Position numbers and translations under genes: made by a program. This document shows positions 34,985-38,998 of a DNA stretch of 64,000 nt, in pieces; the stretch's first letter is position 1; every line of letters begins with the position of its first letter. Source of the DNA: Candidatus Moanabacter tarae (GTDB lineage Bacteria > Verrucomicrobiota > Verrucomicrobiia > Opitutales > UBA2987). The notes beneath the pieces are model-generated. The model was not told the DNA's origin. It made no database searches and saw only the letters and a list, made by a program, of their open reading frames with translations. The DNA is taken from the NCBI GenBank assembly GCA_003226295.1, contig CP029803.1, positions 1,669,477 through 1,733,476 of the forward strand, written 5' to 3'.

Positions 34985-36349
34985 CTAAATATGGTCACCC
35001 GAACCCCGATGACTGAGCGGCAACATGACCCCTTTACGAAACAGTGTGATCTGACCGCTACTCGCTGAGACAACCACCGCTATACAATCAGCTGCCATTG
35101 AGATAGCAGACGCTGCTGAGTGACGCGCTCCTAGTCCACTAGGCATATCCAGGTAGAAGTCTCCGTGTGTGTGAATCAAACTTCCAGCGGATTCGACAAC
35201 GCCGTTACCACGAATCATAAAAGCTCCGTCAATCGACGAAAATTCCTTAATCGTCTCGTGCATGAAGGGATTGAGAACGTTTCGGTCCTCCTCCTTATGT
35301 CCAAAGAAAGGATTTAACACCAGTGGTGTTATCATCTTGTTCATCTTTTCTGAATAACCCAACACAAAAAGGCAACCAATTGGCCTACCCTCTCGTCCTT
35401 CAACAGCCAATTCCGATGCGATGGAAAGAATTCGCTCAATTACTTCAACCGCAACTCCTGAGGGGAGAAGATTCTTCTCTGCTGTCAATACGGTGGAAAA
35501 TTCCTCGGAGACATCGATGACAGCCAAGGTGTCAAATTGATTACTTCTTGGAATTCCCCCCACGCAACAGATTCTGTCTTCATGAGATAATATGCCTCGG
35601 GTCAACCCTATCAGGATCGCACTTCGTAACTGCGACAGCCGTTGATTGGCAAAAGATCGAATCTCGATGGTAGCGTCAAACTTCATCCTGTGCTCTCGCG
35701 ATTCAGAAACTTGGCTATCTCGCACCCTGACCGTTTTCATTTTAGCAAAAGGCCGACTCGCATCGATTCCACCTTCTACGGTGTCTTCAAACAAGAGTAT
35801 ACTAGTGCAATTGGCTTCTCGCGCAATTGTCTCTGCCTCTCTTAGAAAGAGTCGATTGAATCGACTCTGCTTTAGAATAGGCTTTACCAATTCCCCAGAA
35901 ATTCTTTGCAAAAATCGTTCTCGAAATCCAGTCAAGGTTTTCTCCTCAAGCAGATAATCTACCATAGCCTGTTCCTGAAACAATTTAGCTACTTCCGCCA
36001 AGACACTCAGGTAATTCCTATCCTGTTCAGAGGCAAGAAGTAGGACAACAATTCTCGTTGCTTCATACTCTGGTTTGCCCTCGTAGTCTAGACCATCTGG
36101 ACATCTTCCAATAGCGAAGATGTATGCACCGTTCATCTTGAAACGAATGTGCGGCATCACTACCCCATTGCCCAAATACGTCGTCATTGCCTTTTCCCGA
36201 ACTAGAAGCTCACGTAATATCCGCTTCCGGCGGTAGTTGCCCCCAATTCGGGAGCCAATTACGGTCAGGAGTTCATCGATCGCTCCCCTAAAATCAGTGC
36301 TCTTTAGGTCGACGATCCGGGTCTTTGCTACATATCTATTAAGGCGCAT
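34985..36349 (-). CDS. PTS EIIA domain fused to a CdaZ-like diadenylate cyclase (DAC)
   Basis: The 454-residue protein has three parts. Residues 1-155 resemble a PTS EIIA type 2 (PtsN/fructose-type) domain with the phospho-accepting His67 in NGVVMPHIRF. Residues 165-290 look like an alpha/beta pyruvate-kinase-C-type domain (REAETIAREANCTSILLFED). Residues 300-445 match the DAC domain of CdaZ-type diadenylate cyclases: ELAVEGREGRPIGCLFVLG, ILNPFFGH-type text (VLNPFFGH), DGA at 374-376, GLGARHSAA at 405-413, and ACIAVVVS. DAC proteins make c-di-AMP from ATP. The catalytic DGA and RH residues are present. No other PTS component is nearby. The fusion suggests that carbon or nitrogen PTS state could control c-di-AMP, which is inference. 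Confidence 0.75.
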   Translation of the reverse strand: MRLNRYVAKTRIVDLKSTDFRGAIDELLTVIGSRIGGNYRRKRILRELLVREKAMTTYLGNGVVMPHIRFKMNGAYIFAIGRCPDGLDYEGKPEYEATRIVVLLLASEQDRNYLSVLAEVAKLFQEQAMVDYLLEEKTLTGFRERFLQRISGELVKPILKQSRFNRLFLREAETIAREANCTSILLFEDTVEGGIDASRPFAKMKTVRVRDSQVSESREHRMKFDATIEIRSFANQRLSQLRSAILIGLTRGILSHEDRICCVGGIPRSNQFDTLAVIDVSEEFSTVLTAEKNLLPSGVAVEVIERILSIASELAVEGREGRPIGCLFVLGYSEKMNKMITPLVLNPFFGHKEEDRNVLNPFMHETIKEFSSIDGAFMIRGNGVVESAGSLIHTHGDFYLDMPSGLGARHSAASAISMAADCIAVVVSASSGQITLFRKGVMLPLSHRGSGDHI

Positions 36350-36420
36350 TGCTAATTACTAGGGCTTGTCCCAAGTTTAAAACTTCCACCCAAACTTCCT
36401 CTTTATACAAGCTGAATCTT

Positions 36421-37458
36421 CTAAAATCGAATCCACCTAACTTGCATAGTATTCCCAGTCCCTAAACCAAGAGACTCGGCAAAATGAAGCAAAGGTAGAT
36501 TATCCCCCAAATTCTGGAATCCGGTATTATTACGGTGGAGATTTATCCTCTCGAGCACCAACGCATCGAGGATGACCGGATTGACACTCATCCAAAGACG
36601 CCTCTCAGATCGGGTATAGAGTGAATTGAAAACTGGGCCACCAATAAATTGATAGCACTCCAATGGCATTATAGTCACAGCCAAGCTCGCAACGATTTCG
36701 GGAATTGCTGCGATCTCAGCCGCAGCAATCGGGGCATTGGAGGCACTGAAAAAGAAACGTTCACGATTGCTAATATTCCACAGAGTTGCATTCCCGATTG
36801 CTCCACTCACCCCCAAGGCAGGATGGTCCATAGCCACAGGCATGTTAACCCAGAAATCTACATCCGTTAGAAGAGGTTTAGGTAGATAGCTTTTCCTCTC
36901 CTCACGCCCAGGAATTTTCTCATAGGGGCCCAGCACATCAGGCGCATAAGGCATGCCGCCCTTCGGATATAGAGCACTCTCATAAAACCAGACTGGATCA
37001 TACAATTCATTTCGATCCAGAACCTGAACCGGAACTCCTTCGAAGTGAATACCTTCCCCTTTGCTAAGAATTGGGATAAAACCAGATTTTCTCAAACTCG
37101 TCTCATTTAAATCCAAAAGGAAAATCTCTTCCCGCCTGTAGCCCCTTCTGTGTAGTGACTCGATTACGGCCCGTACCAATGGGACCGGAGTCGCTATTCC
37201 GCTCCCCGAATTTGTGTATATCTTAAGTCCTACTCTTCTCTTTACTCCTGGAGTTAGACTTCTATCCGTCCTCTCCTCAAAGCTTTTCAACAGCCTCTCC
37301 ACCGCTACAATGTACTCTTCTTGAGTAAACTCCCGCATCGAATATTCCCACACATAATCCGTGTACATCTCCCGTTCGCTCCCAAATCCCCATATCTGAC
37401 CGTCCGTGAGTAACGGTAAAAAGATGAGCAAACTTGAAAAAAGAGTGGTGGCCTTCAT
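36421..37458 (-). CDS. Exported DUF362-like protein
   Basis: After a signal peptide (MKATTLFSSLLIFLPLLTDG) the 345-residue protein resembles DUF362 proteins: VGLKIYTNSGSGIATPVPLVRAVIESLHRRGYRREEIFLLD matches their N-terminal block (GIKVN...GLATRPELVEAVIE), and VDFWVNMPVAMDHPALGVSGAIGN their central block. DUF362 proteins often carry Fe-S clusters, but this one has no CxxCxxC cluster. ATG 37458 was chosen because it starts the signal peptide; a frame extension upstream is not conserved. It is divergent from the TPR lipoprotein with a gap of 100 bases. Function is unknown. Confidence 0.55.
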   Translation of the reverse strand: MKATTLFSSLLIFLPLLTDGQIWGFGSEREMYTDYVWEYSMREFTQEEYIVAVERLLKSFEERTDRSLTPGVKRRVGLKIYTNSGSGIATPVPLVRAVIESLHRRGYRREEIFLLDLNETSLRKSGFIPILSKGEGIHFEGVPVQVLDRNELYDPVWFYESALYPKGGMPYAPDVLGPYEKIPGREERKSYLPKPLLTDVDFWVNMPVAMDHPALGVSGAIGNATLWNISNRERFFFSASNAPIAAAEIAAIPEIVASLAVTIMPLECYQFIGGPVFNSLYTRSERRLWMSVNPVILDALVLERINLHRNNTGFQNLGDNLPLLHFAESLGLGTGNTMQVRWIRF

Positions 37459-37558
37459 TTCAACTCTTGACAGGCAAAGAGTGCGGAAGGAAGTTATCGC
37501 TAGGAAATAAGAATTGGCCGGGAGCATATCTCCGAAACGCGTCTAAAGCATCTTCAAA

Positions 37559-38998
37559 ATGAGAAATAAAAAAACGGCCCTCCTGTTTCTTCTGCTATCC
37601 TCTTTTCTGCTTCTCTCATGCAAGAGCCAAGAAACTATTATGGTGGAAAAAATAGCAGAAGCCAACGAAAATCTGTCGGAAGGAAAGCTAGATCAGGCCA
37701 TAGGATTACTAGAGGCTCTCGATTCTCGCTACGAGAGGGAGGTAGAGATAAAGGAAGCATTAGCATTCGCATACGCGGAGAAAAAGGATTATGAAAGTTC
37801 TGCACAAATGTTTTCGGAAATCGTCGGGCTAGATGACAACAAGGCTCATTTTCTACTAAATGCCGCCAACATTTTGGAGAATGCCGGGAAACTGGAGGAA
37901 GCTGCCGGAAAATACGTAGAATTCCTTGAGCACAAACCCGAGTCCTCACAGGGCTGGAGAACACTAGGCCGAATTAACAAAGATTTGAACAAACCGAGGG
38001 AGGCGATAAAATACTACCTCGAAAGCTACCGCATAGTGCCCAACGGGAAAAGTGCCGTCCAGCTCGGAAATCTCTTCGCTAAATTGGCTAATATCCCTAA
38101 CTCAGAAAGTTGGTACCAGACTGCTATCGAACTCAACGACGGGAATGAGCTCGATGCTCTCCTAGGTTTGCTGTCAATCGCCTTGGAGAAAAACAACCCA
38201 GAGTACGCTCATAAAATTGTTTTAAATTTGGATCAGGCTCACCCAGGAGAGCTCGATGTCTCCAATTTCGCTTCGGTTCGGTCTGATCTCGCGCGTTGGA
38301 AAGAACAACAAGATGCACTGAAAAGGGAACTTGAAGAACAGGAAAAATTGGCAAACGAGCTTAGAGAAAAGGCCGCAGCGGCACGCCGAGCCGAGAAAGA
38401 AGCAGCGGCACGTCGAGCCGAGAAAGAAGCAGCGGCACGTCGAGCCGAGAAAGAAGCAGCGGCACGCCGAGCCGAGAAACAGCTCATGGCAAAATCAGAT
38501 GAAGAGCATGAATCAGAAGCCGAGAATCCCCTCACTTCCCTGGCAAATGCTCGGCATCTCAAGTCCGAAGGCCTTCTCGATGAAGCCGTTGCCCAGTATT
38601 GGGAAGTAATAAAACTCGATGATACATCCGGAAGTATCTGGAGTGAACTATCAAGTTCTTATCTCCAAGCGGGACAGGAATCCTGGGCAGAGGCAACGGC
38701 ATTGGAAGCTATTCGACGTGACCCTCTCAACTCTCACTTCAATCTTCAATACCTTACCGCTGTACGACTGACCAAGGATCAATTCAGCTATCTCGAGGAA
38801 CTGAAGAAGGCCAAGGAAAAACTTCGGAACAGCCCTGAAATAACACTCGCTCTTGCTAGAGCCTACAGGGAAATTTCAGGAGGCGCTGTTGAGGCCGCTG
38901 CTTTATATCAGGAATTTCTTATTCTTGCCCCAAACCACCCAGATCGGGAGATTGTGGAGGCAGAATTAACTAACCTTCCAGAGACTATCAACCTGTGA
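37559..38998 (+). CDS. TPR-repeat lipoprotein with Ala/Arg/Glu/Lys linker
   Basis: The signal sequence ends in the lipobox LLSC (Cys21). Residues 40-240 form TPR-type repeats (LDQAIGLLEALDSRYE, YESSAQMFSEIVGLDDNKAHFLLNAANILE). A charged linker of four 9-residue repeats (EAAARRAEK) spans about 272-307, and more TPRs follow to residue 479 (LDEAVAQYWEVIKLDD). Such lipoproteins act as periplasmic scaffolds, for instance in secretion, polysaccharide export or envelope assembly. It precedes dnaG by 105 bases but probably does not share its operon. Partner unknown. Confidence 0.7.
   Translation: MRNKKTALLFLLLSSFLLLSCKSQETIMVEKIAEANENLSEGKLDQAIGLLEALDSRYEREVEIKEALAFAYAEKKDYESSAQMFSEIVGLDDNKAHFLLNAANILENAGKLEEAAGKYVEFLEHKPESSQGWRTLGRINKDLNKPREAIKYYLESYRIVPNGKSAVQLGNLFAKLANIPNSESWYQTAIELNDGNELDALLGLLSIALEKNNPEYAHKIVLNLDQAHPGELDVSNFASVRSDLARWKEQQDALKRELEEQEKLANELREKAAAARRAEKEAAARRAEKEAAARRAEKEAAARRAEKQLMAKSDEEHESEAENPLTSLANARHLKSEGLLDEAVAQYWEVIKLDDTSGSIWSELSSSYLQAGQESWAEATALEAIRRDPLNSHFNLQYLTAVRLTKDQFSYLEELKKAKEKLRNSPEITLALARAYREISGGAVEAAALYQEFLILAPNHPDREIVEAELTNLPETINL
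38372..38479 (+). repeat. Four 27-bp tandem repeats within the TPR lipoprotein gene
   Basis: The unit GAAGCAGCGGCACGTCGAGC plus CGAGAAA recurs four times in phase (27 bases, 9 codons, encoding EAAARRAEK), the first unit starting GCCGCAGCG. Units differ at one or two bases (CGT/CGC), so it is a recent in-frame expansion likely to vary in length between strains. Confidence 0.9.

Follow-up and report, generated by a model that had tools for sequence, protein, structure and literature searches.

A minus-strand gene at positions 34985-36349 of the window (the whole 64,000-nucleotide stretch that we analysed) encodes a fusion of a PTS EIIA domain of type 2, a DacZ_P domain and a diadenylate cyclase (DAC) domain, and this architecture is an old, order-wide and already established enzyme class rather than a one-off. 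The gene product would be a soluble DacZ-type diadenylate cyclase carrying an N-terminal EIIA-Ntr-like regulatory domain. That the EIIA domain regulates the cyclase we consider likely; that it does so through phosphorylation of His67 in the source organism is the view towards which we lean with less assurance. The gene and its features are:

34985-36349, minus strand: whole gene, EIIA type 2 + DacZ_P + DAC, 454 aa (Pfam, alignment, AlphaFold2)
35894-36349, minus strand: EIIA-Ntr-like domain, residues 1-152 (PF00359, 54.1 bits; AlphaFold2 fold compared with PtsN)
36149-36151, minus strand: His67, predicted phospho-acceptor, in VMPHIRF (aligned with the PtsN PH motif)
36011-36013, minus strand: Tyr113, at the position of the second active-site His of PtsN (aligned with Burkholderia PtsN)
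35876-35890, minus strand: low-confidence linker between EIIA and DacZ_P, residues 154-158 (pLDDT <50)
35492-35863, minus strand: DacZ_P sensor domain, residues 163-286 (PF21755, 48.5 bits)
35027-35407, minus strand: DAC catalytic domain, residues 315-441 (PF02457, 67 bits; NCBIfam DacZ; Foldseek CdaA and DisA)
35222-35230, minus strand: DGA motif, residues 374-376 (D374 and G375 invariant in 75 sequences)
35120-35137, minus strand: GLGARH motif, residues 405-410 (G405, G407, R409 and H410 invariant in 75 sequences)

Architecture, predicted structure and class of the fusion

The reading frame begins with ATG, spans 454 aa and is free of internal stops. All three Pfam models scored above their cut-offs: PTS_EIIA_2 over residues 42-138 (E 2.2e-14, 54.1 bits, cut-off 27), DacZ_P over residues 163-286 (E 8.7e-13, 48.5 bits, cut-off 27.4) and DAC (PF02457) over residues 315-441 (E 1.4e-18, 67 bits, cut-off 27). 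A preliminary description of this gene had proposed an N-terminal EIIA type 2 domain with His67 in VMPHIRF, a PK_C-like middle domain and a DAC domain with DGA and GLGARH; the profile search that it suggested bore this out, and His67 and both DAC motifs lie at the residues it gave. The middle domain is Pfam DacZ_P; a PK_C-like fold is reported for the N-terminal part of DacZ proteins (Braun et al. 2019, PMC6741144). In sequence alignments, GVVMPH around His67 pairs with GVAIPH of Burkholderia PtsN, and the regions around DGA and RH align with CdaA. The nearest NCBIfam model was haloarchaeal DacZ (103 bits over residues 213-442), whose equivalog cut-off of 430 was missed; by these scores the fusion appears to be a relative of haloarchaeal DacZ and not that equivalog.

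An AlphaFold2 model built on a 75-sequence alignment had a mean pLDDT of 87.7, a break at residues 154-158 and a pTM of 0.59; these values indicate that the domains are modelled with confidence while their mutual placement is uncertain. The top Foldseek matches of this model in the PDB were EIIA-Ntr/PtsN structures (3urr, 4gqx and 2a0j, TMt 0.82-0.83), followed by the diadenylate cyclases CdaA and DisA, so that structure prediction, a second suggested check, also came out in favour of the proposed domains. Together, the Pfam scores, the 75-sequence alignment, the AlphaFold2 model and the Foldseek matches rule out a chance or mis-called reading frame, and it is virtually certain that the three-domain fusion is real.

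The preliminary description could not place this architecture, which turned out to be present across Opitutales. The 75 relatives in the full-length alignment are collinear over the whole protein, with domain matches to DAC in 75, to EIIA_2 in 74 and to DacZ_P in 73. A phylum-wide sample yielded a match in 40 same-order genomes besides the source genome, nearly all full-length and at 39-56% identity, and none in 2; outside the class, 4 genomes of other classes had a full-length match at ~30% identity. Matches, mostly full-length, were also found in 64 of 70 relatives. An alignment-based scan of named genomes yielded 503 confirmed relatives, unlike a scan with the single sequence as query, which gave zero matches. 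The best 80 of these 503 were named Opitutales, Opitutaceae, Puniceicoccaceae, Lacunisphaera, Opitutus, Oleiharenicola, Pelagicoccus or unplaced Verrucomicrobia, and full-length fusions are present in Lacunisphaera, Opitutus and Pelagicoccus records. An Opitutales bacterium (Verrucomicrobiota) is accordingly the most likely source of the window. More than 500 confirmed relatives and an order-wide full-length protein rule out a one-off fusion or an assembly artefact.

The names of DacD and its sister classes were reportedly coined by Corrigan and Gruendling in 2013. Opitutales proteins were already listed as DacD in 2019, the representatives coming from Lacunisphaera, Coraliomargarita, Puniceicoccaceae and Opitutae (Braun et al. 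2019, PMC6741144), and the fusion shares this Opitutales-type host group, in which it is the standard DAC. Judging by the taxa of those representatives, the fusion is probably a DacD. In the open literature we found no biochemistry or other experiment on DacD or the fusion class, and by title and abstract the three open papers naming both "diadenylate cyclase" and "EIIA" describe no such fusion.

Among characterized proteins, DacZ/CdaZ of Haloferax volcanii and Methanocaldococcus has the DacZ_P-DAC core in common with the fusion, and H. volcanii DacZ synthesizes c-di-AMP with Mn2+ (PMC6741144); in descriptions of the archaeal proteins, however, the N-terminus is PK_C-like and EIIA is absent. 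CdaA and DisA share the DAC fold and the DGA and RH motifs, but the membrane helices of the former and the DNA-binding part of the latter are both absent from the fusion. The likeness to PtsN/EIIA-Ntr extends from the fold and the His67 motif to the EI and HPr partners and to a PTS without a matching sugar permease, whereas PtsN is a free protein with a second active-site His and the fused domain has Tyr there. The EI-Ntr (PtsP) of the nitrogen PTS is also a longer form than the EI of the fusion's genome (~600 aa).

Gene context was rejected as a functional clue: the neighbours (a DUF362-like gene, mrp/apbC, a primase and a sigma factor, with nuoA in most relatives) are housekeeping and uninformative, and no PTS or K+ genes lie close to the fusion gene. 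Elsewhere in the genome PgpH and HPrK lie ~4 kb apart, a closeness that we also set aside, as each gene stands at the end of an ordinary operon of its own. Many relatives have a solitary nuoA-like gene, for NADH dehydrogenase subunit A, directly before the fusion gene; the window lacks it at this site (36349-36421). The conserved gene upstream of the fusion (36421-37527, minus strand), found beside it in many relatives, encodes a protein with a signal-peptide-like N-terminus, whose DUF362 match is weak and falls short of the Pfam cut-off. Further on, a tandem repeat coding for AARRAEKE units (38239-38562), within a TPR protein (37559-38998), opens a long frame on the opposite strand.

The cyclase domain and probable c-di-AMP turnover

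The source genome is one contig of 2,633,965 bases (2.63 Mb, 98% complete), and the fusion carries the sole DAC detected in it, accompanied by one PgpH-type phosphodiesterase. DGA, GREG, NPF and RH are fully or almost fully conserved across the 75 sequences (D374, G375, R409 and H410 invariant, A376 nearly invariant). The third residue of the RHR motif of CdaA, in contrast, is Ser in the fusion and not Arg; in most relatives it is Ala or another small residue, and Arg is missing in nearly all. On alignment, the key DAC residues thus hold in DGA and Arg-His and depart from expectation at the third RHR position. Among 52 relatives, PgpH was missing in 4/5 DAC-less versus 3/47 DAC-bearing genomes (Fisher p 6e-4), a count weakened by incomplete bins; two genomes with neither are G102 (99% complete) and G306 (95%). 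This joint disappearance suggests that the fusion makes the product degraded by PgpH.

The replacement of this Arg by Ser, Ala or another residue in nearly all fusions might also mean that the DAC domain has little or no catalytic activity and that the fusion acts as a receptor for c-di-AMP or ATP. This we consider very unlikely given the (near) invariance of DGA, GREG, NPF and RH, the position of this DAC as the only one in a genome with a PgpH phosphodiesterase, and the co-loss of the two. We therefore infer c-di-AMP production and hold it highly probable that the fusion is an active synthase.

Several genomes of the order depart from the one-cyclase pattern. G102 and G306 show an apparent loss of c-di-AMP signalling. 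G315 encodes a second DAC (L079 / L245), a membrane protein of 398 aa that is similar to CdaA, ends in what looks like a YbbR/CdaR-type extension and adjoins a DHH-type protein, maybe a nanoRNase or phosphodiesterase. EIIA-less DacZ paralogs occur in G173 (L058), G324 (L113) and G334 (G334:C3:36903-37730); in G173 and G334 they coexist with the fusion, and those of G173 and G324 have NPC where the fusion class has NPF.

His67, the EIIA module and the PTS

New here is the inventory of PTS and c-di-AMP genes around the fusion in its own genome. It encodes exactly one EI (motif GGLTSH), exactly one HPr (GIHARPA and the NGKS serine site) and exactly one HPrK (with a P-loop), and its sole PTS_EIIA_2 domain is that of the fusion. 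Of the EII components, the search covered the EIIA_2 and EIIA-man types, and no EIIA-man was found. Because there is no other EIIA_2 and no EIIA-man, the PTS looks small, transporter-poor, regulatory and PTS-Ntr-like, and on the same grounds we rejected a sugar-specific PTS. Of the coupling to sugar or nitrogen PTS flux put forward earlier, the PTS-Ntr-like form is retained, sugar flux being unlikely.

Given the single EI, HPr and HPrK and no further EIIA of the types searched, the PTS of this genome might be a dedicated PEP-to-c-di-AMP relay, the fusion being its sole terminal phospho-acceptor and His67~P directly setting the K+-governing messenger, a reading that we regard as doubtful. Across the order, c-di-AMP is not the only reason for keeping the PTS, since EI, HPr and HPrK persist in the fusion-less G102 and G306. 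HPr must serve another purpose in G314, which has Tyr at position 67, an intact EI motif and no second EIIA_2. Signals could also run in reverse, or the fusion be a phosphate sink: c-di-AMP or ATP bound at DAC or DacZ_P would alter phosphate uptake by EIIA and thus the HPr~P pool. Occupancy of the only EIIA_2 acceptor of the genome would indeed affect HPr~P, and the retention of HPr and HPrK in fusion-less genomes implies other jobs for HPr; yet no further acceptor after EIIA turned up, and the strongly conserved DAC residues point to synthesis as the output, which leaves this an improbable explanation.

Among the 74 Opitutales fusions with an EIIA region, position 67 is His in 66, position 51 is Arg in 66, and position 113, the site of the second active-site His of PtsN, is Tyr in 73. 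At this second position a distant fusion (G004) has His, and the free EIIA of G102 has, by eye, Phe. Position 67 is Tyr in family f65 (G294, G314, G323 and G333), where the rest of the EIIA domain is well conserved, and the three of these four members that were searched (G294, G314 and G323) retain EI, HPr and HPrK. It is Ser in family f4 (G149 and G176), where EIIA scores weakly (26.6 bits), and G149 retains all three PTS proteins. The f65 loci (L090, L091, L097 and L121) represent a natural non-phosphorylatable or altered form of EIIA.

Six DAC-bearing genomes, all of 0.8-1.0 Mb, lack EI and HPr. The EIIA module is gone in G309 and G320 (family f80) and in G321 (f81), is decayed in G316 (f83), and is kept together with His67 in G296 and G313; it is also gone in G329, an f80 member beyond the EI/HPr search. 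Losses and decay are confined to small genomes without EI, HPr and HPrK. By genome, the module is lost in 4/6 without a PTS versus 1/41 with one (Fisher p 4e-4); by lineage, it is lost or decayed in 3/5 without EI and HPr versus none with them, a small count in which genome reduction could cause both the PTS and the module losses. In the tree, both outright losses (f80 and G321) are nested among EIIA-bearing relatives and are therefore secondary, the placement of G316, on a long branch, being less sure. The single PTS-bearing exception in the count by genome, G324, is probably no module loss: its lone EIIA-less DacZ clusters with the additional DacZ of G173, and loss of the whole fusion, or a gap, is more likely than loss of the EIIA module.

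The EIIA domain could instead regulate in its unphosphorylated state, as a fixed interaction or oligomerisation module or as a protein binder, with His67 a remnant. Such a role would fit the Tyr or Ser that stands in place of His67 in two families with a PTS, one of them (f65) with an otherwise well conserved EIIA, the Tyr at the second active-site position across the order, and the module kept in G296 and G313 without EI or HPr. The same points count against a His67 relay, and so do the Ser in RHR, the distance of the gene from PTS and K+ genes and the uncertain placement of the domains. Against a purely unphosphorylated role stand the retention of His67, and of Arg51, in 66/74 fusions and the clustering of EIIA erosion in genomes without EI and HPr, and we judge it rather unlikely. 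The PTS-controlled synthase of the preliminary description thus gains from the domains, the residues and the encoded EI, HPr and HPrK, and is weakened by the replacement of His67 in two PTS-bearing lineages.

A possible route from PEP to potassium control

The best reading of these results, and to us a moderately probable one, runs from PEP through EI, HPr and His67 to c-di-AMP and on to K+/osmotic control. EI would draw phosphate from PEP and hand it to HPr, and HPr would in turn phosphorylate the EIIA domain at His67. The presence or absence of this phosphate would shift the seating of EIIA on DacZ_P and DAC, and this seating would set c-di-AMP synthesis by the dimeric DAC domain; the sign of control is not readable from the sequence. 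HPrK could throttle the relay via Ser phosphorylation of HPr. The messenger would act on RCK_C-type (TrkA_C) K+ transport proteins as candidate targets, and the genome encodes two such proteins, TrkA and a KefB-like antiporter, each carrying a pair of TrkA_C domains. Riboswitch targets are unlikely, since the c-di-AMP riboswitch RF00379 is absent from this genome and from 50/51 relatives. Finally, the PgpH-type phosphodiesterase would clear c-di-AMP. The net effect would be to place K+ and osmotic balance under the PEP/energy state, with a second messenger in between.

Many bacteria use c-di-AMP to regulate K+, and by analogy the fused PtsN-like domain could reach K+ control through the messenger. 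In E. coli, unphosphorylated PtsN controls K+ proteins by binding (PMC13104625, PMC11808508). There PtsN touches TrkA, YcgO and KdpD directly, whereas the fusion would act via the messenger instead. A link between PTS state and c-di-AMP is not described in the literature that we searched, and c-di-AMP goes unmentioned in a 2026 review of the nitrogen PTS. The regulation of diadenylate cyclases is largely open. PtsN and c-di-AMP each control K+ in a wide range of bacteria, as separate systems, and a protein that covalently joins a PtsN-like domain to a cyclase makes a link between the PTS and c-di-AMP directly testable in one purified system. Furthermore, the order offers natural controls in orthologs whose residue 67 is His, Tyr or Ser or whose EIIA module is lost, and these variants, together with the inventory of the source genome, make the regulation itself directly testable.
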